A stretch of DNA of 64,000 bases from Dirofilaria immitis (lineage: Eukaryota > Nematoda > Chromadorea > Rhabditida > Onchocercidae): positions 3,596,001 through 3,660,000 of the forward strand of contig JAKNDB010000103.1 in NCBI GenBank assembly GCA_024305405.1, in the 5' to 3' direction. The notes under the pieces are model-generated. The model saw nothing but the letters and a program-made list of their open reading frames with translations, did not search any database and had not been told where the DNA came from. Of the stretch, positions 3,721 through 63,201 are shown one piece after another; the first letter of the stretch is position 1; the number at the start of each line of letters is the position of its first letter. Made by a program: the position numbers and the translations under genes.

Positions 3721-6051
3721 ATGGTTGCGGCATCAACAGTTGTTGTATCGACAAAAAATTATTGTTTACCCTTATCATATGAACATATCCCAAAGTTATT
3801 ATACTACTGTATCACTGAAAATGTTTTGGATAAATATCTTCTCATCGATAAATATCCGCATAAAATGCAAAATTATGATAAAATAATCACATCAGCTATT
3901 GGAGTATACCAAAAGACAGAACCAAAGTTCTATATGCAACAAGTTAGAATATTCATTTTTCTTTTTTTTTGAATTTAAACAAAAAAAACATTAGTCTTGA
4001 TTACGTTTTAAGTTTAAAATACAATCGATAATCATGATTTCATTTGCGAATTTTTGATCATGATTTCATTCAATGATTTTTGATTATCATACGATGATAT
4101 CAACAAAAGCATCATTTTCAATCAGCCAAATACTTCTTTTTTTCATTCTTCTCCCCTATTATTTTTTTTTTTAAAATGAATTAATCGGCAAAATCATTGA
4201 TCAAAGTTTTGCATCATTTCTTTTGCTAATTTAGATCATCTTCATTTCTACTGCAATTCCAATCACATTATTTGAGCTAATCGTCGGAAATATTTGTCAA
4301 CAATCGATCAAAAATCAATAATATTTGTTGAACCAAATTTATCATTGACTCAGAAATTAATTGAATATCCGAAAGAAGATCATATGATTTCTGGATATCA
4401 AGGTTTTCTTGCTTCCTTTCCTTTTATGAATTAAATAAAGATCGATGTATCGTCAAATGTTGTTAATAAAAATTCTTCGTATAATTTCATTTTCTAATGA
4501 AATATTTTCCGCCCTTTCGTTTTTTTTTTTAAATCAAATATCTTCATCCTGGATATTTATGGTAGTGTAAAATTTCGAACATTTCGGAAATTTATCATCA
4601 TTCTTAAATCAGGTTAGAAATCAATTTTTAGCACCAATTTATCAAATTCATGATGAATATATCTATCGAAATCAACAATATTCGATTATCGAAATATTGG
4701 TTGCCAATTTTTCATTCAATTATAATGTTGAAAATTTTCGATTATCATATTTATCGTGCTTATCGAGAATGTTAATGAACAAATTATTCCTGATCTATTG
4801 TCAACAACATGTAAGCTTAGTATTTTAAATTTTGAAAATTGAAAAATATTCAATAGATTCATTATTCAAATAATTAGCTTTATTTTTATTAATATTGCAC
4901 TTAATAGATAGAATTTGAATTCGTACATTCATTAATTATTCCAAATTTAAATTCTTATATAAAATTTATTAATTATTTCGAATTTAAATTCTTACACAAA
5001 ATTTATTAATCACTCCGAATTTGAATTCTTATATAAAATTTATTAATTATTTCGAATTTAAATTCTTATACAAAGTTTATTAATTATTCGAATTTAAATT
5101 CTTATACAAATTTCATTAATTATTTCCAATTAAAATTCTTACACAGAATTTATTAATCATTCCGAATTTAAATTCTTATGTAAAATTTATTAATTATTTT
5201 GAATTTAAATTCTTATACAAAATTCATTAATTATTTCGAATTTAAATTCTCATACAAAATTTATTGATTATTTTGCAGATATCATTAAATTGTCATAATT
5301 TATGTACATACAAGCATCGTAAATATATCGCAGAAAAATGCTAGTCGAAACGATTCAGCAAAATTTCTACAATCTTAAATATCTTAGCAATATCATATAT
5401 TGCATGAATCAAAGCCAAAATAATCGTTGCTATTTTAATGGATTGAAATTATCAGAACCGAAAATCGATATTGTTAGGTAGATAGCTGAAAAAATTTTTG
5501 ATGTTTTGATTAAAAATTTTAAAATCTTCCTAAATATTTGTTAAACATTAGGAAAAAAAAAACAAAACAAAATAAAAATATTTTTGTAGCATTTTGTTTG
5601 ATCAAAAATTGTTTGATTAATTATTTTGATTGTTTTTTCTTCTTTTAGAATTATCTAAATAAAACAATGAAATCAATTTTTGGAAATATTTTCGAAGTAA
5701 TTTTAATTAAATGATTAAAAAGATAAACTATAATGGCGAGACTATCAATTTTTCATTATTTTACAATCAATTATCAATTAACATGATCAAAAATCATCAT
5801 AATAATAATAATAATAATAATAATAGTAATAATTTCTTCATAGATGCTTCCGTATGTGCAATATAACTGTCAGCCAGATAATGATCGGATTGATGATATT
5901 GTTGAAACGAACGATTTGGTCTGTCGCAACAACCGGAATATTTTCATCTATTACACATATACTAACTTATATACGATCAATTAAAAAAATAATAAAAATA
6001 TCTTTCATATATTTCGAAATTATTTCAAATTTTTTCAACAATCATTTTTGA
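3721..6051 (+). CDS. Unrecognised five-exon gene, probably secreted or membrane, with two frame breaks
   Basis: Exons read 3721-3942, 4235-4402, 4632-4810, 5279-5477 and about 5841-6051. The start MVAASTVVVS is a short signal-like peptide. Exon 3 ends and exon 4 begins with a cysteine-rich stretch (IYCQQH, then NCHNLCTYKHRKY, IIYCMNQ, RCYFNG). Phases fit only if one base is restored in TTT at 4293-4295 and one in the A5 run at 5334-5338; exons 2, 3 and 4 then join cleanly. Exon 5 is open in two frames. One gives VQYNCQPDNDRIDD, which looks more protein-like but needs a further base; the other gives a hydrophobic tail ending at 6051. Intron 3 is filled by a 37-bp minisatellite. I do not recognise the family. 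Confidence 0.4.
4911..5275. repeat. 37-bp minisatellite in intron 3 of the 3.7-6.0 kb gene
   Basis: About ten imperfect copies of a 37-bp unit containing AATTTAAATTCTTATA and AAATTTATTAATTATT. The last copy runs directly into the TTTTGCAG acceptor of exon 4. Confidence 0.85.
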
Positions 6052-9641: not shown

Positions 9642-12600
9642 ATGCGAAGACGACGTAAAATATGGCTATTATTCATTTCAATCATTTCTATCATCATTTT
9701 TGCATTAATTATTTACGAAGAAATTTATGTTAATATTTATTATCTATATAAGAATTATTATGGTATTATGATTCTTCGTAATATTACGATTCGACGATTT
9801 GAAGGTAACAATAATTTAATTTAATTTAATCTTTTTTTTTTTTTGTTTGGATTTCTTTCTTTTATTTTTTCAATTTTACTTCATAATTTAATTTTTCTTT
9901 TTTGTTTTTTTGTTTTTTTTTTACATTTCAATTTATTTCACAAATTGAATGATATCGTTTCGTAAAATTTGATTAATAATATATATATATATATACATAT
10001 TTTTTTTTCTTTTTTATAATTTGTCGGAATTTATTTTTCAAAAAAAAAAGTAAATAAATAAATGAAATTGTAAGAAATTATTTTTATCATTTTTAATATT
10101 CGAAAAATTCTAAATCTAACAATAGATATTTTTTTTTTTGCATATAATAATTGTTTCGAAGCGATAAAATTAACGATTGAATTAACGATCGTATTTTTCG
10201 ACATTTCAAAACTTTATCCATTTCCCTTTTAAAATAATGTTGTTGATTATTTATTCGAAAATACGAATAATTCATTAGCTACATATGATGATGATGATGA
10301 TGATGATGATATGATGATGATGATGATGATGATAATGATGATGAGTGACATGATTTATTGTTTATGTGATTAAATTTCGCGAAAAAAAAATATCAAATTT
10401 CAAATTTTAAGTGTACAAATTTTAAAATTCATTCATTCGAAAATTTCAAATTTTTGGCTATATTATTGGACTGTATTATAATTATTGTTGATAATGATAG
10501 AATATACAAATTACAATAATGATAATGTATGATTTCAGATCAATATTATCACTAATGTATAAATTGATCAAAAAAAATACATTTCAGGTCAAAAATCAAT
10601 TCCAATAGCAATAATTACGGTTTTGCTAAATTGCAGTAATTATGAGGAATATCGTTTAGCTCAAGAAAGTTTCGAATGTTATGCCTTATATCATAATTAC
10701 AAATGGATTGTAATCGATTTGTCGAGAAATGTTACACTTCAAAAGTTATGCCCTCATAAAGATGTAATTTCTTTTTTTCCTTTTTTTTTTATTGATTAAT
10801 TGATAATAGATTATAGCATTAGAAATAATATTAAATATAATTATAAATATTAATAATTAATAGTTTTATATGTAACAATAATTATAATAATAAATACTAA
10901 TAATCAGTAATATATTGTGAAATGATAGAGCAATGATAACAACAGTGATAAATCCTTAGAAACAGAGTGAATTAAAGAGATCAGAAAAAGTTCAACTTAA
11001 TTTATAAAAAATTGAAAATCTAACTGAGAATGTTTAATAAATGATACGAACTATTTATTAGGAATAGTTTGAGCAGAATTTATACTAAAATTTTTTATTT
11101 GATTTCGAGAGTGATAACAATTGATTCATCTTTGATCAATCAAATTCATAGAATAAATGAAATTAAACAAACAAATATATATATATATGTATGGAAGAAT
11201 AAGCCGAATGATCAATTTTGAAATATTGTACCATCTCTTGAGAAGAAGAAAGAGGGAATAATATTGAATGACTACTTTGACTGATATTTACAGTAATATT
11301 TATCAGATCAAAAAAAAAAGCGAGAGAATATTTGGGACAGAAAAGATTGGTTGCTTTTAGAAATCAAAAGTATGATCAAAAATAAAAAAAAATTTTTACA
11401 AAATATCCTTCCAATCTTTCTTTTTATCATATCACATTTATCGTGATTTTTTTTTATTTTAATTTTTTACACTTTTTTTGGCTTTTTTTAAAAAAATTTT
11501 TATAACTTGGCTAATATTTCATTAATTTTAAATATCTATATGAGTAAATTATCTATTTGAAGCATTTATTAGATTAAGAAAATCAAAACTACATGAATTG
11601 TAGTGTTATAAATGATAATAGATGATATTAAGAATGATAAAAGATAATTTTATCAAGAAGCAATTATAGTGTTATAGTGTTAAGAATGATTTAATACAGA
11701 TAATGCTAAGATGATAGAGATATTCTATTAAATTATCTGTAACGCTATAATATTTATTAGATTAAGAAAATCAAAGCTGCATGAATTATAGTGTTATAAT
11801 GATAGTAAATGATATTAAGAATGATAAAAAGATAATTTTATCAAGAAGCAATCATAGTGTTATAGTGTTAAGAATGATTTAATACAGATAATGCTAAGAT
11901 AATAGAAATAAAATTTATCATGAATGATTAAAGTGATGATAATTTTAGTTTATGTTTGCTCGACATTGTGTCACAGCAGAAGTAATGAAGGAAACAAGTG
12001 ATATCCAATGGTTTCTATTTATTGATGCTGATATGGGAGTGATTAATCCTAATCATTTAATCGAAGAATGGATCGATAATAGCGTTAATATTATTTTGTA
12101 TAATCGAATTTTTAATCACGAAGTAATGGCTGGAAGCTATTTAGCAAAGTTAGTTATGATTAATAATAACTTAATTTATCGCAAATTTGATTTTCTTCAA
12201 AAATTATCACTATATTTTAGAATATTATCATATTATTATGAATGATTTATCATATGCTAAATTTTATTTATCGCTTAATAATATAATGTTGCGAATATTT
12301 TTATATGATCATTTAATTAAAGCATAAGGTGTATATCTAATTTTTTTTAAAAAAATGAAAAGAATTATTAAATTAGTTATTTGAATTTTTATTATCATTT
12401 TTGAATATCATATTTACTAAATTATATTAAACAAAGATTAAAATATTAATTTTTCTTTCTTTTTTTCCTTTAAATTTATTACTTTACAGAAATACACCAT
12501 ATTCATGGGAATTTCTTCAATTTTGAGCAAATTATGAATTGAAATTATCATTTCCAGTATTTGGATCAGATAATGGTGCAATTCATGTATGTTAAATTTA

Positions 12601-14599
12601 TTCATTCTAAATGTTTGATAATAATTTATTTAAATTCAAAATAAATTATTTGGGTAATCGATTCTAGTCGTAAAATATCCACATTTATGATCGTTGAATT
12701 TTGCTACTGCCCATCCTGATGCCTACGTTATTACTATATTTTTACAATTTGGATAATCTGAAAATTTTAAAATTATAAATTTTCATTCAAAAATTATTTT
12801 TAGTTTCTTAATGACTCTTAACTCTTAACCTTTTCACTGTGATTATTCAAAAATTAATGATAGGAATTCATATTAATTCTACAACCATCTTGCTTTTTTT
12901 TTTACTATAATTCAACGAATTAGCATGATAAGTAGATGATAACGTATCATCATCATATTGAAATTTAAGTAATTAACAGAATAGTTGAATAAATACGAAA
13001 TTGATAAGCAAGGAAATTTAAAATTAAAAATCTAATTTACGCTTATTTTGCTTCTGTCATAGCAAATTATAATCTTTTAAAATGTTATAATAGAAAATAA
13101 AATAAACGTAAATTAAGTGATACGTAAGTTAAATAAAGTATACGTAAATTAAATGATTAATTAAAATATACGTAAATTGAATGATAAAATAAAATTTACA
13201 TAAATTAAGTGATTAAATAAAATATACGTAAATTAAGTGATTAAATAAAATATACGTAAATTAAGTGATTAAATAAAATATACGTAAATTAAATGATTTT
13301 TTTGTGAAGCATTATTTACGCGATTAAATAATTCAACTTTTTATGTTAATTTTTTTTTTTGGTAAAACGAACAAATAATAAGATTTTAATATTCTAAAAC
13401 TATATCGTAGTCGAGACTAATAATAGCATAAATTGATTCAATTCTTTTAGTACTTTTTTTTCTTTTTCAATTTGTAAAATTTAATTTTGCAGAATGTTTT
13501 GCTCGAATTTATATTCCCAGGACGAGTAAGCGAAAGAGAATTTTGCGAAAGTATTTGGATGGACGTAAAGTTCGTAATTTATATATTTATATATATATTT
13601 TTTTTTGGAATTAAAATTTACGCATAAAAATTATGTCGAGAATATAACATTAACATTCGAAAATTTAATAATCAACAATTTTATAATCCTAATTTTTAGT
13701 AATCAGTGCATAATTTTGATGTATAAATAAAATGATTAAGCAAAGAAATTCAATTAATATTCGTTAAATTAAATAATTATTTGATATGAATTGATTTCTT
13801 GAAATGAATAATAAATTAGAATCCGTTTATTCATTTCTTGCTATTCCGGTTTTTTTTTTTTTTTTAAATCATATCTTTTATTTTATTATTCGAGCTTAAT
13901 TATTTGTTAATTTTAAATAAATTACAAAATTTCATTTTACCTCAAATATGAAACATCAATATCGTTTATCTAAAAATTTTTAAAAACTTTTATATCATGA
14001 TAAGATGAAAGTTTTGCAGGAATTATGATGATTTAAGTATTTATGTAGCTTGTGTTCGAAATATTACCAATGAAACAGCAATTTGGCCTAGTAAAGTGCG
14101 AATTTTGCCAAAAGGTGAAGCATGGGCACGTGATACTTGGCTTACAGATTCGATATGGAGTGAACGAGATTTCATCTTACATGGTTGGCAAAAACGGTTA
14201 GTTTATGTATAACCAATATCATATATTCTTTTGTCTCTCAAAATTTATTCAAAAAAAAAAATTGTCTAGCTTTTATTTGAATAATAATAGGTCATTGAAA
14301 AGAGAAATTGATTTGGCTTTATTTTTAAATTTGTCTTTAATATTAAAATTAATTTTATTTGTTATTTTAGAAGAATTGATCGAATTGTATTTGCTGGTTG
14401 GCCATCACCTTTCGTATCACATCATTTTAATCTTTCACTATGTACCAATTTTAATACAGTTTTATTAAATTGGCAGTATAAAGATACATTTATCAGGAAT
14501 AACTATGAAGTGGAAGAATGGCTTAATAAAACAATTATTAATTCAAGATATGAATTTGAGAAACATTTAAAATTAGTTGCCAATCGAAAAAGGCAATAA
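9642..14599 (+). CDS. DUF273 family type II membrane glycosyltransferase-like protein, interrupted by TGA
   Basis: Seven exons: 9642-9804, 10588-10763, 11949-12148, 12490-12586, 13493-13569, 14020-14196 and 14371-14599. Phases add to 373 codons with no frameshift. A basic start (MRRRRK) precedes one membrane segment (about residues 7-24), giving a type II topology. Exon 3 carries [20 protein letters not shown], typical of Pfam DUF273 (PF03314), a nematode-enriched family resembling GMA12/MNN10 galactosyltransferases; DAD is the likely metal-binding DxD. GSDNGAIH and FAGWPSPF are further family blocks. Codon 192 (12524-12526) is TGA where relatives, as I recall them, have Trp (F-W-A-N-Y), so translation would stop halfway, just after the DxD domain. 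All later exons stay open. Expected site is the Golgi lumen; the substrate is unknown. I chose the ATG at 9642 because it directly precedes the basic/hydrophobic anchor. Confidence 0.85.
10284..10344. repeat. (ATG)n microsatellite in DUF273 intron 1
   Basis: About 20 ATG/GAT triplets with one interruption near 10310. Confidence 0.9.
11564..11911. repeat. 188-bp tandem duplication in DUF273 intron 2
   Basis: Two close copies, each starting TTTATTAGATTAAGAAAATC, offset by 188 bp. The second copy ends shortly before the exon 3 acceptor at 11947-11948. Confidence 0.85.
13105..13297. repeat. 28-bp tandem array in DUF273 intron 4
   Basis: About seven copies of a unit with core ACGTAAATTAAGTGATTAAA. 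The three copies from about 13205 are almost identical; earlier ones are diverged. Confidence 0.85.
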
Positions 14600-15875: not shown

Positions 15876-16096
15876 AAATGAAATATTGATAATGACATTT
15901 GAAATGCTGGGAAAAAAAGAAATGAAGTATTGATAATGGCATTTGAAGTGCTGGGAAAGGGAATGAAATACTGATAATGGCATTTGAAGTGCTGGGAAAG
16001 GGAATGAAATACTGATAATGATATTTAAAATGCTGGCAAAAGGAAATAAAATACTGATAATGGCATTTGAAGTGCTGGCGAAAAGAAATGAAATAC
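15876..16096. repeat. 41-bp minisatellite
   Basis: About five copies of a 41-bp unit with core GGCATTTGAAGTGCTGGGAA. Because 41 is not a multiple of three, the long minus-strand open frames across it are repeat artefacts. Confidence 0.85.
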
Positions 16097-16317
16097 TGGA
16101 AAAAATTGATAGTAACACAAATTGAAAATATTATGAATTGGAAAGAGAATGAAAAAGCAATTTTATTTTTTGAAATTTCTTTTAAAAAACAATTTCGCAA
16201 CTCGTCGTTCAAAAAAAAGTATCCTAAAATGATATTGCGAAAATGATCCATATATTTCTTGTTGCTAATTTTGTAGTTATTCATAACGATCGCATATTCT
16301 TTGCTTGTTTCGAATGA

Positions 16318-16875
16318 ATAGTTAATTAAATATTTGAAATTGAGGTATATTTGCTAATAACTAATTGAGTACTTGAAATCGAAATGTAATTATTATTGAT
16401 TAATTGAATACTTGAAGTAATAGTGCAATCGTTAATGATTAATCGAATACTTAAAATACAATCATTAATGGCTAATTGAGGACTTGAAATTAAAGTGCTA
16501 TCTGAAATTGAAGTACATTTATCAATAACTTGTTGAGTACTTGAGATTAAAATTGATTATTGATATTAATAGAGCATTTGAAATTAAAATGCAATCATTA
16601 ATGATTAAATGAATACTCGAAATACAATCATTAATAATTAATTGAATACTTGAAATCGAAGTGTAATTATTATTGATCAATTGAATAGTTAAAATATTAA
16701 TGCAGTCATCAATGGTTAGTTAATTGGATACTTGAAATATAATCATTAATAACTAATTGAATACTCAAAATTAAAGTACATTTGTTAATGATCAATTGAA
16801 TACTTGAAATTGAAGTGCAATTATTAATAGCAAATCGGAAATTAAATAATATTTAATCGAATACTTGAATTTGAA
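16318..16875. repeat. Degenerate array of TAATTGAATACTTGAAAT units
   Basis: More than ten diverged copies of a unit of roughly 40-50 bp containing TAATTGAATACTTGAAAT and GTGCAATCATTAATGAT-like parts. Spacing is irregular, so the array is old. From 16.9 to 17.38 kb I see no gene, only the presumed 5' flank of the colmedin gene. Confidence 0.7.
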
Positions 16876-17386: not shown

Positions 17387-20300
17387 ATGTCAGATGAAGA
17401 AACAAATTTGAAAAAAGTTCGCTACTTGGAATATTGTCAGATGCTTTGTTTATTACTGACTTTACTAATATTTGCTAACATTTATTCACGTATCGGTGAC
17501 GTAGAGACAAATTGTCGTTTGGAGAAAAACGAATAATTTCGAAACGTATTCGACGTGCTACCGCATCATCATCATCCATTCAAACTTTATTAAATGCAAC
17601 AAAAGATGAAGTTTTAATACATTCTTCAATAGAAAATAAGGTTTCGTCTAAAATAGACTTTCTAAAAAAAAAAAAAATAGGCCTAAAATAGATTTTGTAA
17701 AAATAGCATTCTGAAGAAATCAATTTTAAATTAAAAATTATCCTAATTTCATAATATCAATATCAATAAACGTCCTATTATTGAAAATATAAATTATTTA
17801 AAATTTACAAATTTTAATATGCTTTAACTAGGATAATAAATTGCTTGCAAAATGTTTGGAAATACATCAGTATTGTGCGAAAGAATCGGATATTAGTCGA
17901 GGAGCACCCGGACCGATTGGACCACCAGGATTACCTGGGTAATTGCTTATATCAATTAAATTCCGATAAACGAATCTTTATTCAGAATAATAAAATTTTC
18001 ATGATTTTTTAGATATCCTGGAAAACCTGGACTTCCCGGGCGAGAAGGTCTAATGGGAAAGCCTGGACCTCCCGGTCCACAAGGTACTATTTTTCTTTTT
18101 TTTTTTTCGTTAACGTAATATTCATGCTAGTATTCGTACATATTTGCATTACAAGATGCGTCATATCAATAAATCTCGAATTTATAGGACCTCCTGGAAT
18201 GCCGGGGAAACCGGGAATTTGTCCAAAATGTCCAGTTGCCGAAAATTTTGAAATGTTTCGTACGGAATGTCCAAAAGTTGGACCAATGGAATGTCCAACA
18301 CAGATGGTGTTTGAAAGGAGAAAACGCAATATGTCGAACGTCAATTACCATATTTCGTTAGAATGGTATATCCTCGTTATTTATTTTTTGTTTTCAATTT
18401 TCATACATAAAAAAAAAAACCTAAAAATACAATTATTGATAGAGTGCAGGTATTATTTTAATAGATGCTTTTGAATGATACTGATTTGATTACGGAAATT
18501 GACAAATGTGTTCGCGTATGTTTACTAAATGTAACAGTTCCATCTGAAGCAATTACTGTACCAATTAGTACCGAAATACCGTACATCGAAGGAGCAACAG
18601 CACGTACGCTTTTTCTTTCTATAAATTTTAAATTTACAACACTAAAATTATATGACAATTTTTCATTTTGTTACTATGATACATGATATCAAGTTTTACT
18701 TATATATCAAATTGTTAGATTGTTATTTGGATGATGTTGGCAAACCAATGTTTCATGCACATTCTAATACATTTTTCGGCGCATGGATGCGTGATGCTTA
18801 TCCACAAAATGGACAGGTATATAAAATTTTCATTACTATTTATGAAAAAATGATGACAATATTGAAAGATACAATTTATTGATTGGTTTTTTTTTTTTTA
18901 TCTCTGCTGTTTAATTATCAAGCATTTTTTGCATAACATAAAACAAAAAAGTTCTATTAAAGGATATGATGAAACGTTGGATGACAAAACATTTTCAAGG
19001 TGATACAGTGGAAGAATATTCAGATGAAGGTGATATGCGAAGACAACGTGTTTCTGTCACGTTAGCACTATTTCTATTCTTTATCATTAATGTTTGAAAA
19101 TGATAGTAATAAGTTAAAACACGCTGATAATCATTAAATGTGGTAACTTCAAATTATAATTTGCGCTTATTGCAAACTAAGTAAAATGTTGGATATTTCG
19201 GATAATGTTCGAAAGGATTGTATATTTCTATTTCAAGTAAACGACAAAGTTATTGGCGCATTATTACGAATTAAGCCAAAAAGTTGAACATTTCTGGCGG
19301 CATATTAATTTTGCATAATTATATCGTTTTTTATTATGAGTTGTTTCAAAATAATTTATATATGATTATATTTAAGTAATTAATTATATGCTATCGGATA
19401 GATTAAAAATATTTTTCGAATTATGAAAAAAGTTTTTTCTTTTTGAAAATAAATTAAAAATTTTGAACAAAAGCGGTTAATGATAATAATCGATTTTCTA
19501 AATGAATAAGTCAAAAAGTATTAGAAACAATTAATTAATTAATTAATCGATTAAAATTTTTAGTCATCATTTACCTTATCTATATGATGGAACAAATTTG
19601 ATATTTTTAACGGTTCATTATATTTTCATCGTGCTGGCACTCTAAAATTGGCAAATATGAGCTGAATTCAAAAATATACAATGAAGTGATAATTGATAGG
19701 CATGCAGCACATAAAGGAAACAATGTTGGTTAACTTTCATTTTTCCATATTGATAATGAAAAGGCAAAAATTTTTTTTCCTGAATTTTAAGTCATTCACA
19801 ATTTTCAATTTACAACACGTCACAATTTTTATTTAAAAATTCATTTTGTTTTTTCACAAAAAGTTATTCGTTAATGTTGAAGTTTTTTTAATGAATTTTT
19901 CAAGTTATGGAAATCTAAGTTCTAGAAGTTTTTTACAGTATCTGTTCAACTTATCGATGAATTATTTCGATTTGGCAGTCGATGAGAATGCTTTATGGGT
20001 GTTATTTCATTATGAAGATGAAGAGTTCTTATCAATAGCTAAATTAGATATTAGCAATTTAACCATTTATGAAACTTGGAATCTAACATTAATTAATCAT
20101 ACCGAAGTATCGAATGGTTTTGTTGTCTGTGGTGTACTATATTTGGTTAGTTTAAATTGGAAAAATTTAATAGAAAAAAAGTAAAAGTTATTATCTTTGA
20201 TTTTTCAGAAAGCGAAAAATATGTAGATTTATGATTATTCAAATATTATCATTAATTAATAATTTCTATTTGAAATTTTATTTACAGGTAAAAAGTTCAT

Positions 20301-20494
20301 ATGATTTAAAAAGTGAAATAGCGATCGCATACGATCTATACCGTAATAAATACCGTAAACCAAACATCCAATGGATTAATCTATATCGAAATGCTAATAT
20401 GATATCATATAATCCTTATGATAAGCGAATTTACGTCTATGATCGTGGATATTTGCTAACTTTACCAGCAAGAATAAGTTGGACAGCCAAATAG
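17387..20494 (+). CDS. Colmedin: collagen plus olfactomedin type II membrane protein (UNC-122/COF-2 family), three frame breaks
   Basis: Ten exons: 17387-17640, 17832-17938, 18013-18083, 18188-18375, 18465-18603, 18719-18816, 18963-19060, 19564-19724, 19939-20145 and 20288-20494. Order: cytoplasmic start, membrane segment (LLLTLLIFANIYSRI), basic site SKRIRR|A suited to furin, two short Gly-X-Y blocks (GPPGLPGYPGKPG and relatives), Cys-rich linker (CPKCP), then olfactomedin with FGAWMRDAYP, RWMTKHF, NYFDLAVDENALWV and INLYRNANMISYNPYDK. This matches colmedin/gliomedin; C. elegans UNC-122 and COF-2 are relatives, and I cannot say which is the ortholog. Frame requires one base restored at A5 17525-17529, T5 19604-19608 and AAA 19653-19655; the total is then exactly 511 codons. 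The exon 4 end at 18375 was chosen by phase; its donor is weak. Confidence 0.85.
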
Positions 20495-26125: not shown

Positions 26126-29100
26126 ATGTATAGCAATAATGGCGTGTTGTGGTCTGTTCCGCTCATCGTTTGCATTGTATTTTTGTACAATGAGTATTTG
26201 ATATATTATATAACGATTTATATCAAATGTTCATGGCCTATATCGTTATCACTGCGCGAACAACAACAGAAAAAGGAAACACGGGTAATGATGTTGACCG
26301 ATATCCATCTCCTTGGGCCCTATCGAGGACATTGGTTCGACAAATTAAGATTTGTTCGCCGCTTTTTATTTTTCTTGCGAAAAAAAAAAGTCATAGTTAA
26401 AGAAGAATTACATAGAAATAAAAATAATACTGTTTTTCTTCTCTTTCTTATGCTAAAAATTAAATGTTAAAAATTGTGGGATGAAAATTGCATTAAGTAA
26501 AGTTTACAATATTATCATATAAAAATAGAAATATTTGCATAAATAAAGCAAAAAGGGCAAATCAGAAGTACGAATATCAAATCCAAATAAATAACATTAG
26601 CAATAATTATACAAATTAAAAAATGATGAATAAAAGTTAATATAAAATTTGTTTAGATGAACAGAAGTAATAAATGCTATAATGCAAACGATATTGAAAT
26701 AAAAATTAATTGCATAAATTTATGTGTTTTGAAATTAGATAAAAATACATACAATTTTTAGAAGCTAATGAATATACTATAAAATTTATCAAACTATTTC
26801 AAAAATATTTTAAAAAAATGAATTTATAGATTGAGTTCTGTTCCATTTTAACTGTAAATCTTAACTGAGTGGAAAAGTTGCGAAACTTTCTATTCAGTTG
26901 GAAAATCCAACTTAACAACTTAGTTACCGTATTGATTAATTATGTATGAGAAAATAGGAGCAAAGATTTTTTAATACCTTGCAAATGAATCTGCTAAATA
27001 AAACTTATCATAATCTTTGATTGTAATTTATTTTGTTTATATATTCCTAGGGTATTAAAATTCTAATTTTAGCATTTCGATATACTACCTCATTTCAATC
27101 TTTATTATCGATATTTAAATACTGATAATTTTAATTGAAAATATTTATTCAACTAAAAATATTTATTAATACTATAGAATTTTAGCATTTCGATATACTA
27201 CTTCATTTCAATCCTTAGGTAAGAATGTGCGAAATATTTCTCATTACAAATCGTCTCATCTAAGTAAATTTGTTTTGATATTAAAATTTCACCTACGAGA
27301 ACATATCAATGAATAAATGCCTGAATTTATTGTTTTTCAGGGAATGGCAAATGTACCGGTCGTTTCAGTCAGCTATATCACTAATGCGTCCGAATGCCGT
27401 TTTCTTTTAGGTTTGTGTATCACATATTCGAAATAATTAAATACCTAGTTCTTAAGTATGCATCCAGAAAGCATATATTTGAAATAAACATTTGGTTCTT
27501 AAATATACATCCAAAAAACAGTAAGAATTCTTTTAACTCACATAATTAACGACAACACTAGGAGTACGTCAGTGTCTGTTGTTTCATAATTTGGAATTTA
27601 TACATTTCAAATATTTGGACGAATTCGCGAAATTATGCAAATGCAAACATGTTACATTAAAAACTACTTTGTATTTGCATATTTTTATTTCCTTGAAGAT
27701 TTCAATGAATTTATTTTTCGCTGGTAGTTTTTGATAATGGAAAGAATTTGTAGGATAACAGTAGAAAAAAATTTTTGATTTTTTTAAATGAATCAAAAAT
27801 TTTTAGGAGTGGTTTTGAAAGAACATTATAGTTTTAGGTGATTTATTTGATGAAAGTACTATAAGCGGTTATCAAGGCCTTGTGAACTATGTAAATCGTT
27901 TCAATGAACTTTTTATGTGCCCGAGGATGTAGAGAGACAATGTATTCTGGGCAATCATGATATTGGATTTCATGATGAGTAAGTTTCCTAATGCTACTTT
28001 TATTTCGAGCTTTGCCTGATTTTAAGAGTTTGCGCAAGAGGTCGTTAAAGCTAAAATCGCAACTTCAGTTTTTGAGCCGGTTGCATATGTCTTTATACCA
28101 ATTGTCGTTTGATCTTAATTTTTTTCTAATTCCTTTTCGTTTGATCTTAATTTTTTCTAGCAGTAATTAGCTGTAACATGCGTTTGAATATTTGCCCAAT
28201 TGCATATATGATAACTGAAAGATTACTGTAGTTTGAAATTCATTTTTTTGTTAATAATAATGAAGAGATCAAATCAACGCATTGTTCTCATTTTATACTT
28301 CTTTGGATTTAAGAAATGTTTTTTTAATCCTTTAGCTTTTGAGAATTTTCAAATTTCTCGAATTTTCTAACCATAAAAATTCCAAAAGTTTCATTCGATT
28401 AGGATCAGTCCAGGACGACTTCAGTTTCTCTCGCATCATTTTTCACGCTCATTTGCGGATCATATTGTTATCAGTGGAAATCATTTCGTATTACTGAATT
28501 CGATGACGGTTGAACGTGATGGTTGTTCTCTCTGCAGCGCTACAGAACGTCAAATTGAGGAATTGAGTCAAAGATTTGACTGCACGAAAAATAAAACAAT
28601 GTGTAGCATGCATTCAAGACCCATTTTGCTACTTCATATCCCATTATATAGGTGATTTTTAATGAAATCAAAAATGTCGTTTTTAAATTATTCATTCTAA
28701 TCACCAAAAGATGCGATTGTCATTGTTTCATATAAATGTACCATATCATTTTCGTGGTATTTGACTAAGTTTTTCTCAATATTATTCATTTTTAAATTAA
28801 AATTTCTTAACATTATTAAATTGAATTTAGAAATATTTTCGAAAGAACAAATTTCGCTTAGATTTTAGTGATTCTAAAAAAATTCCACGCAATTTTTGTA
28901 TAATTTTTGATGGTCAGGAAAAATGATGCACATTGTCCAGATGACAGTGATGCAAGTCCAGAACCAGTAAAATCAAAGCGTTTTCATGTTGGCATTGATT
29001 GTCTTTCGAATGCTTCTTCTCACTATATTCTGGAAAAGTTGAAACCTCGTGCTGTTTTTAATGGTCATACACATTACAGTTGTCAAACTTGGTGAGTCAA

Positions 29101-29591
29101 AATTTGCCTTACTTAAATCATCTCTTGGAATAAATTTTTGCATGCATTAACATCAGAAGCTTTTATAATTAAAAATTATTTCGAAATTAATTAATTAGTA
29201 ACAGTTGTGATTAGTCACAATATCCATAATTTACAAATTCTCGAGGATTTATTTTTGATGTCTTGAAAGATTACCAATTTACGTTGCTTTAAAAAATGCT
29301 ACTTTTCATTGTTTTCCCTAATGTTATTGTCAGACATATTTCGGAAACAATGATTTCCAGAGATATCTTTAGTTTAATCTATATTCCAGGTGGCGATCAC
29401 CGTACAATATGTTTGAATGGACGTTGTCGTCGTTTTCATGGCGGAATATTCCACAACCTGCATTTCTTCTCGTTACCATGACATCCGATGATATTCAAGT
29501 CAACAAATGTTTTCTACCAAATGAGAAAACAGTTATCGCTAGCTATGTCATAACTGCCTTGGGTTTAATATTTTTTTGTTCTACCGTTTAG
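26126..29591 (+). CDS. MPPE1: Metallophosphoesterase MPPE1/PGAP5 (GPI-anchor remodelling), two frame breaks and an odd donor
   Basis: Six exons: 26126-26349, 27341-27410, 27838-27978, 28403-28651, 28918-29091 and 29390-29591. Metal-binding motifs of the calcineurin-like phosphoesterase fold appear in order: LTDIHLLG (about residue 58), GDLFDE, ILGNHDIG (about 136) and FNGHTH (about 277). An N-terminal hydrophobic segment and a C-terminal one (residues after KTVIAS) match the two-membrane-span MPPE1 topology. The family removes ethanolamine-phosphate from the GPI glycan at ER exit sites. Frame needs one base in the T4 run 27405-27408 and one in T5 27910-27914; the sum is then 354 codons. The end of exon 1 must be 26349 by phase and by the DKLR-EWQM junction, but it is followed by ATTTGT instead of GTTTGT. 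The last exon is in the frame giving SPYNMFEWTLSSFSWRN; a longer rival frame is a shadow. Confidence 0.88.
27066..27213. repeat. 35-bp direct repeat in MPPE1 intron 1
   Basis: ATTTTAGCATTTCGATATAC and the following 15 bases occur at 27066 and again at 27179, with one or two differences. Confidence 0.8.
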
Positions 29592-30510
29592 TTTTGTATT
29601 TACGATACCGACAGTCATATCAGATCATAACTCAGAAAAACGACTAAATATTGCTGTCATGTAACTAACTATCAAGTTTAAATTTTTTTCAGTTCTGTCG
29701 AAATTTTGAAATTTGAAGTGCTGAAATTTTCACATTATTTGTTTTTATTGGTTCCATCCCATCAAAACAATCAGTAGTTAATATTTTGTCTTTGGAGAAA
29801 ATGAGAGTGTTGAAATAATCAAAATATTTTATAAATTATAAGTATGACAAATAATTAAGAATTTTATATGGTAGAAATGATAGCTAAACTTTGTTACAAA
29901 AGAAATTGTTTGTTATGAGAAAGATTTATTGACGGATAGGAAATACACTGGTATTTAAGTATAATAGAAGGAATAATATACTAATATTGAAATAAAATAG
30001 TAGAAGTAGTATTAGAGTGAGTAAAAAGTAATAAAAGTAGAATAACAGGATATAATCGAGTTAAAAGGTTGTGTGGGTCCAGAGCATTTTTTTTTGACCA
30101 GTAACATATCTGAAAACGCCAGATATAGGGGTGCTTATTAGACCGGAACATTTACCTGAATGATCTAAGATTTTTTGCTGTTGAATTAAGCCTGGTAATC
30201 ACAATAAAGATAGCTGTTTGAACAAAGGAACTTTTTACATTTTACAACACATTGCTTTAAAGAAGTATAAGGCGAAGAAATTCGCCTTATACTTCTCATA
30301 TGAATTGGATTAATAGATATTTAAGATATTTTTACCACTAAATTTAGGATAGAAAATTTACGTATGAATTGGATTATCAGATTAATTAAAACAACATTTT
30401 ACAATATTTTATAAAAAGAAATGTTTTTGTTTGATTTTAAGCTTATTTTATTGTCATTTTTCTTATTTTTAATAATACGAATTGGTGTATGCCTTATAGT
30501 TTTTATAGTA
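29592..30510. other. Convergent intergenic region between MPPE1 and RPA12
   Basis: The 3' ends of two converging genes face each other. The interval holds a strong hairpin (30261-30296) and a duplicated TATGAATTGGATTA (about 30299 and 30363). No coding sequence seen. Confidence 0.6.
30261..30296. repeat. 16-bp perfect inverted repeat with GAAA loop
   Basis: AGAAGTATAAGGCGAA, then GAAA, then the exact reverse complement. As RNA it would form a 16-bp stem closed by a GNRA tetraloop. It lies about 215 bp beyond the RPA12 stop codon and about 670 bp beyond MPPE1. Confidence 0.85.
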
Positions 30511-35020: not shown

Positions 35021-38000
35021 TTAATATAAAACAATATTTTGTGTAGAAAATGCACTCGAAAGAGAAGTAGCAGAGTCAGCATCCATCCAGGCAAACGGTA
35101 TCCCAATATCTGCGACACAACATAAATTATCTGAGTTCTTCTGCTTTAAACCTATAATAACAAGTGTGAATAGAGATTTGAAATCAGAAAAAAAGCATAG
35201 TGTGTTTTTGTTTAATAACATAATAAAAAAAATGAAAAGGACTAATAAGGGCAGAAAAACTTGCTAAACTCTACTAATTAAAAAAAAAAACTGAAAAACT
35301 TACAGCCATCGTGATCAGTTCCAACACCAACCATCAAAACATGCTCATTTTTGACAAGCTCCGGAACTTTTTCTATACAGACCAAATGAATTGATGATCC
35401 CAAATTTTTTATCCATTCCTTGACACTCTCCAAAAGCAAAGGACCCAAAACCACGACAAGCTGCAGTGAATTCAATCAGAAATCCAAAACATATATATTA
35501 CCATCCAATTTTTAAAAAAAAGAAAAACAAAAAAATTTTTAAATAAAAAGAAGTGTGATTAAAAAAATGATGAAGTGACTCTCTTATCGGAACTTAGCTG
35601 AAGTAATTATTTAAATTATAGGCTTGTACAATCAAGAGTTAAACGTATTTTAGCTTTACATAAATCATAAATCATTATTTAATTACACAGATCATTATAT
35701 CAATTTGGGAAGTAAAAATTATTCAAACCTTGAAAATACCAATAATATAAAGCAGCTTAATTCCATTTTCACAAAACGTAAGCTGGCATTTTATGAAAGC
35801 ACATACATAAATCAAAAACAATTACCTCAATACCATCTTTCGGAAGCTCTTGTACATTATGAACTTGAAGTACATGTGGCAAATTGTATTGGCCAAGTAA
35901 GCAAGAATATACAACTGTTTGGCACGCTCTGTTTGAAATGTGGCGCAAAAACATCGTCGTTAAGAAAGTATTAACCGCTGCTGAGTCCAGCACAACTATT
36001 TGACTAACCATTATTTCAAATCTTAATTTATGAATTTTTATTCATGAAGAAAAAACATTCGCTGAGAAATCGCTTTCAATTTTAGTTATTTAATGGAATA
36101 TTTTGGCTCTACCTGTATCAAATTTTAGAATTTCAAAACTTCAACTCGCTTTACAATTGCTACCGTTTGATGCTAGCTAAAGTTTGCTAACTTTGATTTT
36201 TATGAAAGCCTTTTTTGCTTACATTGCGCTTTTGCGCTTCTTATCAATAAGAGAAAATATATTAAAAATAAAAAAAAATACTACTTTTCAAAGACTGCTA
36301 TAATATAGACTGCTATGATCAATTAGACTCGGAACGTAAATCATCTATTGGTGCTGCTGATAGAATTGCCAATTCATCATATATTTAAATTATATTATTA
36401 AAGACTATAAACTTAGGAGGCAAAACTTACTTATCAATAATTCTCCAGATGAACATCATTAAACGATCAGCGATCAATACATGGAACATATCACTTCCCA
36501 AATACGGCTCCGCTCTCTAAAACAATAACAGGAAATAAATGCAGATAAAACGATTCTTTCTTAATTGGCAGATGGGTCAGTCAAAATGATTTGGTCATTA
36601 ATTAATTATTCAAGCATATTTTTAAAGAACATCGTGCACCAAGCAATTAAAATTGTTCCCGAACATTAACGGGATTTGAAATTAGAAATTATTGTCAACA
36701 AAAGCTGACACAAATCTAAAAATAAAATCGAAAACACAAAAACAAACCTGCAAAAACTTTTCCTTATCACACGGTTTCAAAAGCGGAATCAGTTGTCCAT
36801 CTACTGTAGTTTCAAGACGTGTTGCGACGAATTGATCATGTGTCTTTGTAGTCCAAGATGTAACTCTCGATGGATCGGAAATGACATTTTCAAAATGCTC
36901 GTAATTCTTCTGCGCAAACAACGTCCCAACAGCTGACATTTCCTTCTGCTCAGAAATATTCGCATTTTTTTCCTATTATATTAAATGTATGTCAGTTAAC
37001 TGATTAGTATACTATAGGATAACAACATTCATCAGTCTGCAGGAACTATGATGGAACGAATCATTACATAATTATTTGTATTGTAAATTAAAAATATAAA
37101 GACAAAAATTTCGATGGAGAATAGTTGAAAAAGATCAAAGAAATCCGAAGAATCATTAAATGACCCATTGTCACTTATTTTTACTGTCATTTAAATCTGT
37201 AAAGAGAAATTACTGCAATCATGACTGTATAACAAATGAAATTACAATAACAAATGCATCAAAATGAACATAAATATAACTCACATAATTTCGGAAAATC
37301 TCCAAATTTTTTCAAAATCAAAGTCCTCATTCAAATCAAAATCAATAGGTTTGATAAGACCCTCATTTGTTTTTTATCTCGATTATGTTGAACAGTAGCA
37401 TCTGATTCCGATATTATATTAGGTCCACGATCTAAAATGGCCTTGATAAAATGTTATGATAAAATTTACAAAAGAAAGAAATGAGAAAAACCGATCAAAA
37501 TAAAATACATATTTATAGCGTCTATGGTAACTTATCTAGCTTATGTATATCTGCTACTTTGCAGCTCATCTTTTCAAAATCAAAATTTAAATACACATAA
37601 ATATATGCTTACTTCGTCGCCCTTTGTGTATTGGTACAGCTACAACTGGTAGTGACTTCGATTCGCCATTAATTGAAGAAACATTTTTTCCATTTGAGAT
37701 ACGAGTTCCATGGCCATGTCTTAACTTTGATCTGAAAAAAAATGATAGATATCAACAATAATGAACATCTTGCAGATATCATTTAAGTTAAGCCTTCCTA
37801 ATGGTCAACATTAATCAAATTATGCTGAATAGTCGAATCAGAATAATTTCCCTAACCACTGAAAATTAATGACTGCATAATGATGATTTGCGGAAAAAAA
37901 ATACTTACAATGGTTTGACCATTGGCGATGGACACGATGAACCAGAAGGAGAGGAACAAGGCGACTGTTGCTGTTGATGTACATTCAACTCACGAACTGC

Positions 38001-38981
38001 GGTGGTATCCGTGATAGCAATATTTTTACAAGCATTTGTAATTTCTTCAACTTGTTTCTTTTTAGAATTTACTTGATGTACTGCCTCTTCATGTTTTGTT
38101 GTTTTCGATGGACAGTCGCTGGCAGCACATGCAGCTACAGCATCATCATGAGTAGTCGTAGATTCTATGGTTTTTTCAGATATCGCCTTAATATATTACG
38201 ATTCATTTGAAAACAGAAGAAGTTTCGGATAAAACCGAAAACAATGAATTATTGAAATATCATTCAATTAAAAATCATTAAAAAATGCCTCAAGCTCATA
38301 AATGAAAACTTATTTAAAATCATTTATACACTTGAGAATATTTACCCCTCGTTCTTTTATTATAGCCGACAAAAATAGATAGTATTTGCAGACAAACAAG
38401 AACATAGATATAATAAACATTTTTACGACTAATTAACTATTGATGGTATAAATGAAAGCATTTTATTTGGTTTCGAATAAGTTCCAAATTTTTGAATTAT
38501 TAAAACTATTTAAAAATTCTTTAGAAAACTATACATCTTATAATCCACAACGACTTTCTTTATATTCATTCAAATTTCACAAATTAATTATTATTCTCAC
38601 CTTTTTGTTCGGCGTTTCGGCTTCAGTATTCAAAATTCGGAAGGAATGAATTGAATTAATTTGAAAAATTTTTCACGTTCACCCATTGGCTTACCATTTC
38701 TGCAAAAAAAACTTATTCTTAAGTTCATCATTAAAAACTTGAAATTGAAAACAAATTTAAAAATAAAGTCGACTATTTCTTCCCAATAAATCAGGCAGAA
38801 CATCGAATTCAGATTTGCTGCATATTGAATTTTTCTTAAGGAAAAAAAGGAGAGAAAAAAGCATACAAAAAGGCCGCTCCAAGAGGACAGTCCGTTTATT
38901 CGCATTAACGGACTTGATTCGTCCCTGAACACATTTACCATTTTTCAGATTCAACGTTACCACTTGTCCAACGTTACTCAT
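35021..38981 (-). CDS. edc-3: Enhancer of mRNA decapping 3 (EDC3), four frame breaks
   Basis: Ten minus-strand exons: 38981-38867, 38699-38601, 38186-37909, 37731-37613, 37431-37285, 36972-36748, 36516-36431, 36021-35826, 35460-35304 and 35151-35021. The N-terminal LSm-like domain begins MSNVGQVVTLNLKNG. A Gln/Ser/Pro-rich linker follows, then the FDF motif (IDFDLNEDFDFEKN), then a YjeF-N-like domain (MFHVLIADRLM, QIVVLDSAAVN, LVVVLGPLLLE, HVLMVGVGTDHDGC, VADIGIPFAWMD). This order is that of EDC3, a P-body scaffold that activates DCP2 and binds the DDX6 helicase through FDF. One base must be restored in each of T6 37307-37312, T6 37370-37375, A4 38632-38635 and A5 38867-38871 (plus-strand letters); the sum is then 519 codons. 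Confidence 0.85.
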
Positions 38982-38997
38982 TAGAAGTACAATTGCT

Positions 38998-39000
38998 CTG
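38998..39000 (-). promoter_or_regulatory. Acceptor-like TTTTTCAG upstream of the EDC3 ATG
   Basis: AAATTTTTCAG ends 16 bases before the start codon and is a strong nematode acceptor. It is either a trans-splice site or the end of a 5' UTR intron. Confidence 0.5.
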
Positions 39001-40247: not shown

Positions 40248-41632
40248 ATGCTTGCTAAAAGAATAATTACGACATTTCGATGTGTAAACTTACCGGGACC
40301 AGTATTTTTCAAAATGCTCATGGTAAGTTATTTGTGTTTTTCTCGTTAGAATTAATCAAAATATGACATTATCAAGTGAATTATAGTTTAAACGTTTGCA
40401 GTTTTGCAAATTAATTACTGAATTATGATATGTATTCGTATTTGATTCTAAAATTCTAAAATTTAAGGAGATCTCTTTTAAATAAAAAAGATCGTTTTGA
40501 TCTTATTTGTTTAGTAAACGAATTTTAAACATAATCTGTAAACGGTTGCCTTAATGAATAATGAATGATTCATAGAGTTGACAGCGATCTGTTGCTTTAT
40601 CTTTAAATTCGTTACATCCACACAATTCTGCATGAATATATTTGTGGATTTCCTGTAATTTTATGTTGTTTCATTCATTCATTCGTTTTACATTCGGTTT
40701 GCACTTAGCAAGATGCCAACCATTGTCATCTTTTTTGCTACACTGCTAGTATCTAGTCTCATTCGTTATTTTGACTTAAATTATTTACTTGTTAATTACA
40801 TTCTCTTCTATTATATGATGTTTAAATGAATGATAATAAACTATCATTAATGCATCATTCTATTCACTTGTGAATCATCAGATTTTTATTTTAGGACTTG
40901 TGATGACGTTAAGGAATTATGCTGCAGTGGGTTCGAAAATTCTTCCTGAAAAGGAAGATAAAGGTTTCATTGATTTGAATACCGAGAAGTTATGCAGCTA
41001 TGTCTGTGTAAATTATCTTGTTGAGGGTATGTTTAAATACTGGAGTTTTCTACATCGGATTTATATATATATATATATGGCCCACTTGGAGTACACATTC
41101 AATGTCTATCAATGTCTATGTTTCATTCAAGCAAGAAAGACGTCATACTCATTGAAAGTTTGGATATATATATATAATTAGCTAGTTATTCAAACTTTAG
41201 TTAGCTAGTCATTTAACGTTTATGATTCTCCGATTCGAAAATAAGATAAACTTATGAGTACATTAAATTTAGCTGTTGCTAACCAATTATAGGTGGGGAA
41301 GATCGAAAAATTTTGCCCGATTCCGAGTATCCACCATGGCTTTTTGAACTGAAGTTGGGAAGAAGAAAAGAACTGGAAGATTTAGACCCAGAGGTTGACG
41401 GTTGGCTTTATTGGCGAGCGTACCGATTGGTCAGTATTTCAATGCTTTACAAAATGTTTTATCTTCTAGAAATATGTTTTCATATAAATAGAAGGATTCT
41501 GAAGAATTAGTTTTAGCGACAATTGCACCAAATTCATCGCATAGAAAAGCTAAAGCACAAGTTTATCAATCTACAGAACTCTCCAACAATGCGGAAAAGT
41601 GGTTACCGAGGAAAGAAAACTTCTTTATATGA
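40248..41632 (+). CDS. mrpl-54: Mitochondrial large-subunit ribosomal protein L54, one frame break
   Basis: Four exons: 40248-40322, 40895-41026, 41293-41429 and 41492-41632. The start MLAKRIITTFRC is basic and amphipathic, fitting a mitochondrial import signal. The core CVNYLVEGGEDRKILPDS, then YPPWLFEL, DLDPEVDG and WRAYR is characteristic of mL54 (MRPL54), a mitochondrion-specific ribosomal protein. Exon 1 joins exon 2 in phase only if one T is restored in the T5 run 40315-40319; the total is then 162 codons (161 residues, close to the usual size). The other three exons are unbroken. Confidence 0.9.
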
Positions 41633-59170: not shown

Positions 59171-62100
59171 TAAAGGTGAAATGCATTGGAAAGTGAATTT
59201 TTACATCAATCGATTCTAATTACTTCTCGAAATAGACCTAATAAATTAATCAATGCTTTTTATTTACCCTAGACTTACAAGTGATACGAATGGTACTTTC
59301 GTTAAATAATTTTAAAAGATCAAATTTAATCCAAATCGTAGTCTAAGCTATTGATTTAATTTTATAAATTTTTTCAGCCATTATGAGAAATACTATGGAT
59401 GTTGTATCAAATTATTACATTCTGGAACTGTTTCCAAAATTAAATGAATTATCGTTTGGATTAAATAAATATGTCACAGTAACTGGATGATACATTATTG
59501 TTCATATTTTCTACTGATTTTTAAACTGTTAAAGTTATTAATATTCTAGTAAATTTTATCTTAACTGTTACGTCATTTATTATAGTTATCATGTTACATT
59601 GCAATATCTTTGCATACTTTTTTGTTTTTTATTAATAATTCTTTTTGCACTTAAATTTTCCATTATAACAGTAAATTATAAGTAATAATGATCAAAAATT
59701 ATTTTGAATTTATTTTTAGCAACCATTATTTTCACTTCTTAGGTTTTGTCCGTAAATCAATTTTATTTCAATTACTTTACAAATATAAAATTTATGTTAT
59801 ACCGTCTTTCTATTAAAAGTACATGAACTTCTTAGCAATCATTCAAATATTGATTTTGAATCACTCCAACAACACTATCGTCAATCATTTTGGATGAAAC
59901 GAACAAATGATCAGAAAAAAATTCTCTTAATTCACTTTTAATTCGATAATTAGAAATAAATAAGCAAGTAATTTTCTAAATTATTTGAAACTTTGGTCAA
60001 AGCTTTAATCAATAATGTTTTGTTACTTTAAAATTTTGGCTACCATAAAAAGAAGTTATGCGCAATGAGAGGAGCACAAATAAAAAATAGTAGAGAAGAA
60101 ATAACTTTACAATAATTAGGAACTCGTCGAATTTTTTTTTTTTTAGAAAATCATTTAGCTTTTAAGGAACTAATTTTCTTCCGTTTTCTTATTTCTTTCT
60201 TCATAATAAATACATAAATAATGATGTGTATTCTACGTAAAATATTCAATCTATTATAATTATTTGAATGGCATATATTCCGCGCTTATTTTTTTTTTTT
60301 GTATTTAAAAATTAGCTTTTTATCATTTTCCAAAAACGAAAAGCTTCGATTGCATGAATCGATTGAATTGGTCGCTAAATACAAATTGATCTATTCGACG
60401 TACGCAATCATTGCATCATTGAGAATTAAATAAATTTTCTATTTTTTATTTACCTTTCAAATGTAAAAAAAAAAAAAAATTCGAATTCTCCAGGCATTAA
60501 CTTGCCATTTTTCTTAACCATATATGGACTTTATATGAATTTTGTGATAGAATAATTGGTTTATATAAGATAATAGGTACCTACAAATGAATTATGAAGT
60601 CATACTAAACATGTTTACTTCCTATTTTACTTTTTTTTTTTTAAGTAAAAATCTTTTTATATAATTTTGCTCTAGAGAATCGATGGAACTGACTTATGCC
60701 ATAGAATACAGTATCTGCATATTGCCAATAAATTACCATACTGTAAATAGATAAATAAGTTTTTAGCATTGATTTAATCAATAAAAGCAATATTATAAAT
60801 GGATGAATTGAAAAGTTTTGCTAATTAATCCTCTTATTATTTCTAAATATTTATTAACTAATCCGATAGTTTCTCCTAGCTGATCATTTGTGGCAAATTT
60901 TATTTACTTGTCAGGAACAAGCCTTGCAAATTCATTTTGTGGCATTAGGACTGCTAGCAAGCTTCATCAACCAATCATTTAATGTATCCATTTTCTGATT
61001 TTGGATGTAATTGTCAACTCATTTAATTTAATTTTCAGGAAAACGAATTATGAAAATTTGACTAGCTAATAAACAAAATATAGTAAGAATTTGATTAGAA
61101 TGCGAAATCATAGTTTTTAACCTTTTAAGCTTATTCTTAAGCAGAATGGAATTATTTAACAATTTGAACACAATCGAAATTTCTTAAATATAAATAGGCA
61201 AAGTAATAATCCGATCAATATCTAATTAAAGCACAATTTAATGTTACAGAACGTTAGATATCATAAAATAAATCATACACGATTTATTTGTATAAAAGAT
61301 ATGGTGATAAATATATAAGGAGATGAAACAATTTAATTAATGATAGTAAAGGGAAGAGAAATAATGTCTCTTCCTTTAACTATCATAATCTGAAAAACGA
61401 AAAGAGAATACAGTAGAAAGAGGAAATCAGATAAAAGAGGAACAAATCTTTGTTTTGATTATAATCAATGATATTTCATATATGATAACAAAAAATATTA
61501 CAGTTAACTTCTGTATCGATAATCATCTTGCCTGTCATATGAGTCCATAATGAATACTTCTCTTCTTAAAAGTTAATCACAGTACTTTGTCTTACTTTTT
61601 TATTTTACTTTAAACGATTTTTTTATCGCTTAATATTTCGTGCTTTCAAAAATCAATCATGCTGAACTTTATGGTTACACAAAAATGTTAGTGAAATATT
61701 GTTTATTTGTGGTTGATGTTTGAAGCGTAAAGAATTAGTCACCAATTATTTTCTCACATTACTGCTTCTCAATATTTGCGTATTTGGTTGTTCTTGATGT
61801 TTCGAAAGATGACGTTTCAGAAATAGAACCAACTGGAAAAGTGTGATCAAATTTAATAAAAGGTCACAAACTTTGCAAGCTGTTTTTTTTTGTGATAAGA
61901 TAGGCAAGATTATTATTAGTTTCGCAAATTTCATTTCGAATTTAATTAATGAAAAAGATTGTCTCAATTAATTGCTAATTTTTTTAATAATGAATGAAAG
62001 AAAAATTTTTTATTCCCCTTTAATTACTTTTCTGAACTTTATTCGTTTCAGTTCTTTTGATAATTAAGATTAAAATATTATTTCTCGGTCTTTGTACTCT

Positions 62101-62335
62101 GGTAAACATAAGCAAATGTATTTTAGATATCTTATATGAGTTTCATGTCATCTTTATGCGTATATGAAAATTTCAATTCACCAAAAGTTCATTAGATCAA
62201 ATCAATCATTCAGTGAAAATGTAATTAACATTTTTTCTGCTGTGTGATAGAAAATAAATGAGTAAATAATAGATTTTCTTATTACACTTTATGTTTCTTA
62301 TTATAAATACTAATTCTAAACTTAATTATATTTGC

Positions 62336-62337
62336 AG
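62336..62337 (+). promoter_or_regulatory. Acceptor-like TATATTTGCAG upstream of the heptad-repeat gene
   Basis: Ends 18 bases before the ATG at 62356; candidate trans-splice or 5' UTR acceptor. Confidence 0.45.
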
Positions 62338-62355
62338 GAATTTTGAATTCTTATC

Positions 62356-63201
62356 ATGTTGCCATTCATTATCGCTAAATATTTAACCGCTCTAGTAATA
62401 ATGTAAGTTAAAATGATAAACAAATGGTTTTTACTGTTATTATATATTCATTCAATTTATTGAAATATTAATGTATTCCATTTCTTTCAGTACGATATCA
62501 TTAATCGCTGAAATGGATGCAATAACGTTCAATTTTAATATATTATCATTCAATAACAACAAGGCAGGTGATAATGTAAGTTTTGTATTCCTGATAAGAT
62601 AATGCTTACTATGTCACGTGCTATAGCACAAATATGCAATATATTAAGTATTAGTGCTTAATTCAAGATCAATGTTCCCAAGAAAAACTTATTTTAAATT
62701 TCAGTCATTGAACGGTAATGGTAATGCAGCAAGTTCCAGTTCTAATCGAGATGAACCTACAAAGAAAGATGATTTTCATGATGATTCTCAATATGATGAT
62801 TATTATGATGAAGTAACTTCAACTACACAGAAACCTTTCAACACATTATCAATTAGCAGCATATTTAACATTCCTTTCTTAGGTAAAGTTGGGCTCAGTT
62901 TTCCGATCCACATTGGATACCTTGGGCTAATCAAAACTGCAAAGAAAACGATCGATATAGTAAAACATCATATTCGCAGAGTAGAACACCAATTGTAATA
63001 TACAGTGGAGGACCATATATCTACGGTAGAACACCATATGTGTATGCTGGGACATCATACGGATACGGTGGGACATCATATGGATACAGTGCAGTACCGT
63101 ATGGGTATAGTGGAGTATCATACGGGTATAGTGGAACACCAAATTATTACTACAATTCCAGGCAATATTATCCATCTCAATCCAGTGTTTATCGTGGCTA
63201 A
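62356..63201 (+). CDS. Secreted Tyr/Gly heptad-repeat protein, one frame break
   Basis: Three exons: 62356-62402, 62491-62575 and 62705-63201. The start MLPFIIAKYLTALVIITISL is a clear signal peptide. A Ser/Asn-rich then Asp-rich acidic segment follows (DDSQYDDYYDE), then PHWIPWANQNC and a C-terminal repeat of seven residues such as GGTSYGY, SAVPYGY and SGVSYGY, seven copies in all, ending YPSQSSVYRG. The repeat frame joins the N-terminal frame only if one A is restored in AAA at 62885-62887; the sum is then 210 codons. Without it, translation runs into a different frame ending at 62998. Tyr/Gly repeats suggest an extracellular structural or cross-linked protein (cuticle, sheath or eggshell), which is inference. 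A polyadenylation-type AATAAA lies near 63266. Confidence 0.75.
63006..63153 (+). repeat. 21-bp coding repeat (xGxxYGY heptads)
   Basis: Seven imperfect 21-bp units encode Gly/Ser-x-x-x-Tyr-Gly-Tyr. The unit length keeps the frame, as expected of a functional coding repeat. Confidence 0.8.

Follow-up and report, generated by a model that had tools for sequence, protein, structure and literature searches.

Does a 64,000-nucleotide stretch of the heartworm Dirofilaria immitis, close to the end of a contig of 3,667,787 bases (C63, positions 3596001-3660000; hereafter the window), carry a series of damaged genes, or do the genes only appear damaged in the assembled sequence? A sequence-only reading of this DNA had proposed that thirteen single bases, each placeable in a run of A or T, must be restored for the frames of seven genes to close, and had attributed the gaps to systematic under-calling in the assembly. 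Based on alignments to intact proteins, on genes of other contigs and on the published history of the assembly, we conclude that the one-base gaps are almost certainly consensus errors of a nanopore-only assembly and not damaged worm genes. Errors of this type are a known kind of artefact.

The genes of the window are intron-rich and lie in DNA with a G+C content of 21-30% when measured in 4 kb steps. The values were 21-23% in positions 1-28000, with 27% at 16-20 kb, and 24.5-30% in positions 28001-64000. Arrays resembling minisatellites, whose units measure about 28-41 and 147-188 bases, were observed at 4927-5273, 11564-11910, 13129-13298, 15876-16098 and 16331-16828; one of them separates exons of the 3.7-6 kb gene.

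Two genes of the window could be aligned to full-length proteins of the same species. The MPPE1/PGAP5-like metallophosphoesterase gene (26126..29644, plus strand) was compared with P0001, a D. immitis protein of 373 aa deposited as a model on a 15,667,105-base contig of another assembly. A frame- and intron-aware alignment revealed 366 identical codons out of 366, and 364 out of 364 once non-canonical introns had been made costly. Three T runs on the plus strand are each one base short, at 27405-27408, 27909-27916 and 29571-29578; the last of these had escaped the sequence-only reading. The first break was drawn as a non-canonical intron in the initial alignment and as a break when such introns were costly; its equally good placements reach into the intron (27405-27442), with the costly-intron alignment putting it at 27405. 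At the end of exon 1 (26348-26354), the fit to P0001 needs either a non-canonical donor or, if such donors are costly, one extra base at 26348. This junction lies outside any long homopolymer and was left out of the in-exon break counts; in either reading it is something other than a run called too short. The protein deposited from the window's own contig, P0009 ('Metallophosphoesterase 1 [Dirofilaria immitis]', 308 aa), contains out-of-frame segments.

The second gene lies on the minus strand at 35024..38999, a part that covers residues 12-535 of P0121, a full-length D. immitis protein of 535 aa deposited as a model that is also located on the 15,667,105-base contig of the other assembly; residues 1-12 of P0121 fall outside the aligned part. 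We take this gene to be an EDC3-like mRNA-decapping gene, a tentative name based on weak LSM-like matches and on source names that read 'DFDF domain-containing'. P0121 itself is annotated as 'Tryptophan synthase alpha chain', and P0136, a related record from D. immitis, as 'Alanine--tRNA ligase'; both names look wrong. The same type of alignment showed 509 identical codons out of 510, together with four frame breaks on the minus strand, at 38867-38873, 38667-38674, 37368-37375 and 37306-37313, every one of them one base short. For the first EDC3 break, the interval of equally good placements extends into an intron.

Six gaps had been proposed from the letters alone for these two genes. Five of them (27,405; 27,910; 37,307; 37,370; 38,867) overlap breaks found by alignment to the intact proteins, while the sixth, placed at 38,632-38,635, corresponds to a real break that is located 32 bases away, at 38,667-38,674. 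The argument that corrected exon lengths sum to whole codons did not hold up in the same way: the totals that had been given contain neither 373 nor 535, the intact lengths in aa, and such sums therefore test little.

Proteins of filarial relatives were also compared around each break, as the reading had suggested. Within 21 residues around the break, the seven relatives of P0001 agree with it at 8-19 positions for the first MPPE1 break and at 14-19 for the second. At the third, near residue 350, agreement falls to 4-14 of 21, with one record missing and one relative at 4 of 21. For EDC3, each of the four breaks shows agreement with P0121 at 13-21 of 21 residues in six of the seven relatives; the remaining relative is a partial record that spans two of them. 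Taken together, the 14 filarial proteins support the sequences of P0001 and P0121 at the majority of the breaks.

Several neighbouring genes broken in a window near a contig end could be the mark of a decaying chromosome segment, in which the genes would be real pseudogenes. In decaying genes, substitutions as a rule exceed indels. The comparison with the same species shows the reverse, with seven in-exon breaks beside a single differing codon in 876 (or 874, with costly introns), an identity judged against proteins, to which silent changes are invisible; substitutions have not accumulated. Furthermore, each of the two proteins matched at a single place within the 65-contig genome that was searched (86,694,620 bases): all 8 matches of P0001 and all 11 matches of P0121 fall inside the window. 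Full-length records of both proteins exist in another assembly, and PRP8, located on a different contig, is broken likewise. We therefore consider decay very improbable; of the alternatives that the sequence-only reading had named, decay and ribosomal slippage, neither fits MPPE1 or EDC3.

PRP8 is a core splicing gene and essential. A genome search located it on contig C10 at 6.93-6.95 Mb, where all 7 of 7 PROCN matches are found. Compared with a Prp8 reference of 2,341 aa (P0139), 2,097 of 2,270 codons are identical, and the alignment contains 12 in-exon breaks, one base short in 12 of 12, a result that was repeated under other alignment settings. For this contig (12,535,412 bases) a PRP8 model has been deposited, P0137 (2,153 aa), which aligns with no break; its exons are trimmed or skipped at 11 of the 12 break sites and an exon has been added beside the twelfth. 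Thus a gene finder working in an intron-rich genome hides the breaks through altered exons.

Ten chaperonin regions were retrieved, of which two were aligned, with solved-structure chains taken as references for those two. Over 439 codons, CCT5 on C22 contains 1 break, one base short, whereas the 322 codons of CCT3 on C17 showed no break, in alignments that could miss shifts near exon ends. Since CCT3 shows none, the density of breaks is uneven. Beyond the window, the breaks thus number 12 in PRP8, 1 in CCT5 and 0 in CCT3, in three genes on three contigs of 65, as expected of a fault that is genome-wide. A search for the HSP90 family gave a hint of adjoining pieces in different frames, to which no weight was given. 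Six COX1-like matches were observed on the large contigs C64, C26 and C58, five of them with internal stops by the standard code; these stretches may be mitochondrial or Wolbachia genes copied into the nuclear genome.

The breaks in PRP8 also bear on the possibility of true indel polymorphism between the Portuguese worm and another isolate. The two assemblies were deposited separately and could derive from different worms, which would leave room for such variation. However, a worm with twelve breaks in PRP8 should be inviable, the PROCN domain is present at a single place, and apart from the breaks MPPE1 and EDC3 hardly differ between the two records. True polymorphism is accordingly an extremely unlikely source of the gaps.

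Altogether, the alignments yielded 20 in-exon breaks (7 in the window, 12 in PRP8 and 1 in CCT5), all of them one base short. The claim that no site requires removal of a base holds for these 20 of 20, although the MPPE1 exon 1 junction may hold one extra. Over the five genes measured, roughly one base is missing for every 380 to 710 bases of coding sequence. The window contains 7 breaks in 2,682 nt and the genes elsewhere 13 in 9,246 nt (two-sided p 0.18). As to a fault confined to the end of the contig, the rate in the window is 1.9x that elsewhere, a difference that is not significant (p 0.18).

To describe the setting of the breaks, we determined for each of the 19 breaks in MPPE1, EDC3 and PRP8 the interval over which it can be placed equally well, scored the longest run in that interval, and compared it with equally wide intervals drawn at random from coding sequence; the list held one-short events alone by construction. 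Breaks touching A/T runs of at least 4 bases numbered 13 of 19, against a mean of 4.1 for the random intervals, and 0 of 2,000 draws reached 13; the two wide intervals that extend into introns (the first MPPE1 and the first EDC3 break) make these draws more generous. With runs of at least 3 bases the number was 16 of 19. Among the other three, two lie in no run of 3 and one falls within four consecutive C. The indels are thus enriched in homopolymers, which are the main setting of the breaks and not the sole one; under-calling is not confined to A/T runs. The histogram of A/T run lengths, tried as a test that needs no reference, dips at 6 (z -5.7 in the window and -2.7 in 13 other loci); phage T4, the sole outside control, also falls steeply at that length and has no run of 7, so the dip was given no weight.

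A preference for A/T runs and one shared sign in all 20 in-exon breaks are also what programmed ribosomal or transcriptional slippage, restoring the frame at such runs, might produce. P0001 and P0121, which come from another assembly and are known as proteins only, nevertheless run through the break sites, although slippage would require the other assembly to share the short runs, and twelve such events would be required in the single gene PRP8. We regard programmed slippage as scarcely credible. Hardly more can be said for a broader version, in which the short A/T runs would truly be present in the worm DNA and full-length proteins would arise through genome-wide slippage of the polymerase or the ribosome; we give it next to no probability.

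The other seven proposed sites, in the remaining genes of the window, were judged from reading frames and domain profiles. On the plus strand at 17387..20494, a three-frame reading and the OLF profile point to a gene with collagen repeats and an olfactomedin domain, with breaks near 17525, 19604 and 19653. The later olfactomedin exons alone match OLF profile positions 114-185 (73.3 bits) and 184-243 (47.0 bits), and three short pieces around 19,604 and 19,653 gave no profile match when taken alone. When the olfactomedin pieces were joined by X and followed by the later exons, one OLF match was obtained that covers positions 61-243 (148.4 bits, E 3.5e-43). This extension of the match across the joined pieces supports the gaps proposed at 19,604 and 19,653. 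We infer that the whole of 17,525-19,655 belongs to a single collagen-olfactomedin gene, which brings the number of genes in question to six in place of the seven that had been claimed.

Three-frame reading also revealed frame changes near 4276-4318 and 5323-5341 in a gene at 3721..5984 (plus strand), for which there was no Pfam match above the cut-off, and near 62885 in a short gene with a Gly/Tyr-rich C-terminus (62356..63201, plus strand), for which a Pfam search was likewise without a match. The gaps proposed at 4,293, 5,334, 17,525 and 62,885 are thus candidate gaps, taken from the three-frame reading. A gap at 40,315, in contrast, is not needed. Exons 2-4 of a mitochondrial ribosomal protein gene, identified by PF08561 and by their frames, occupy 40895..41632 on the plus strand; the family suggests an MRPL54-like gene. 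An in-frame ATG in exon 2, downstream of the proposed gap, starts the open frame, so that no break at 40315 is required.

It is conceivable that most of the breaks are errors and that one or a few of those in the genes at 3.7-6 kb and 62-63 kb, in the collagen-olfactomedin gene or in the MRPL54-like gene are real or reflect misread splice sites. These are the genes read without an intact same-species protein, the site at 40315 proved unnecessary, and 1 of the 6 sites that could be checked had been misplaced. On the other hand, at the rate measured elsewhere (13 breaks in 9,246 nt) the unreferenced genes would be expected to contain breaks anyway. We consider such a mixture unlikely, and return to consensus errors as the explanation of the gaps.

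The published history of the assembly agrees with this explanation. According to its description (PMC9179477), JAKNDB01 was obtained from one MinION flow cell (R9.4.1), base-called by Guppy 2.3.5, assembled with Flye (nano-raw) and polished by Pilon using the raw nanopore reads; short reads do not appear in the methods as given there. The description reports 110 contigs and 87,899,012 bases, in comparison to the 65 contigs and 86,694,620 bases analysed here, an N50 of 3,687,191, gene models by GeneMark-ES and a BUSCO completeness of 93.9% (PMC9179477). The source is thus a nanopore assembly without polishing by accurate reads. Together with the intact records elsewhere and the same one-short errors in PRP8, this origin supports systematic under-calling in the assembly, as the sequence-only reading had suspected.

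At the level of the reads, the gaps would have arisen in three steps: R9.4.1 reads would under-count bases, mainly in A/T runs; the Flye consensus would retain the under-counted runs; and Pilon, supplied with those very raw reads, would leave the errors in place. Under-calling explains the sign of the breaks, their setting, their occurrence on several contigs and the almost complete identity apart from them. A limit on this explanation is that P0001 and P0121 are deposited models, compared as proteins only.

Similar errors have been described in nanopore assemblies of Drechmeria coniospora, in which, as here, indels located mainly in homopolymers break the frames of conserved genes (PMC7500977). 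According to that study, long-read polishing fails to cure homopolymer indels and BUSCO overlooks them, as the protein can still be put together from fragments in separate frames (PMC7500977). Since BUSCO was found there to be insensitive to short indels, the completeness of 93.9% does not contradict a high number of broken frames in D. immitis. The two cases differ in sign: the errors left after polishing in D. coniospora were more often over-long runs (PMC7500977), whereas 20 of 20 in-exon breaks in D. immitis are one base short. Kastor (PMC12007338) likewise addresses errors of long-read assemblies in which shifted frames and spurious stops turn genes into apparent pseudogenes, as in our window; that tool serves small genomes, whereas the present case concerns an intron-rich animal genome in which breaks are hidden by changed exons. 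Among the titles and opening lines of abstracts listed in a literature search, none mentions frame errors for the D. immitis assembly examined here.

These results remove a false biological signal from this region of the D. immitis genome and quantify the size of the error. The consequences extend to public records, as both of the two JAKNDB01 proteins examined, P0009 and P0137, contain false segments. Gene loss, pseudogenes and new exons in D. immitis should therefore not be inferred from JAKNDB01 alone.
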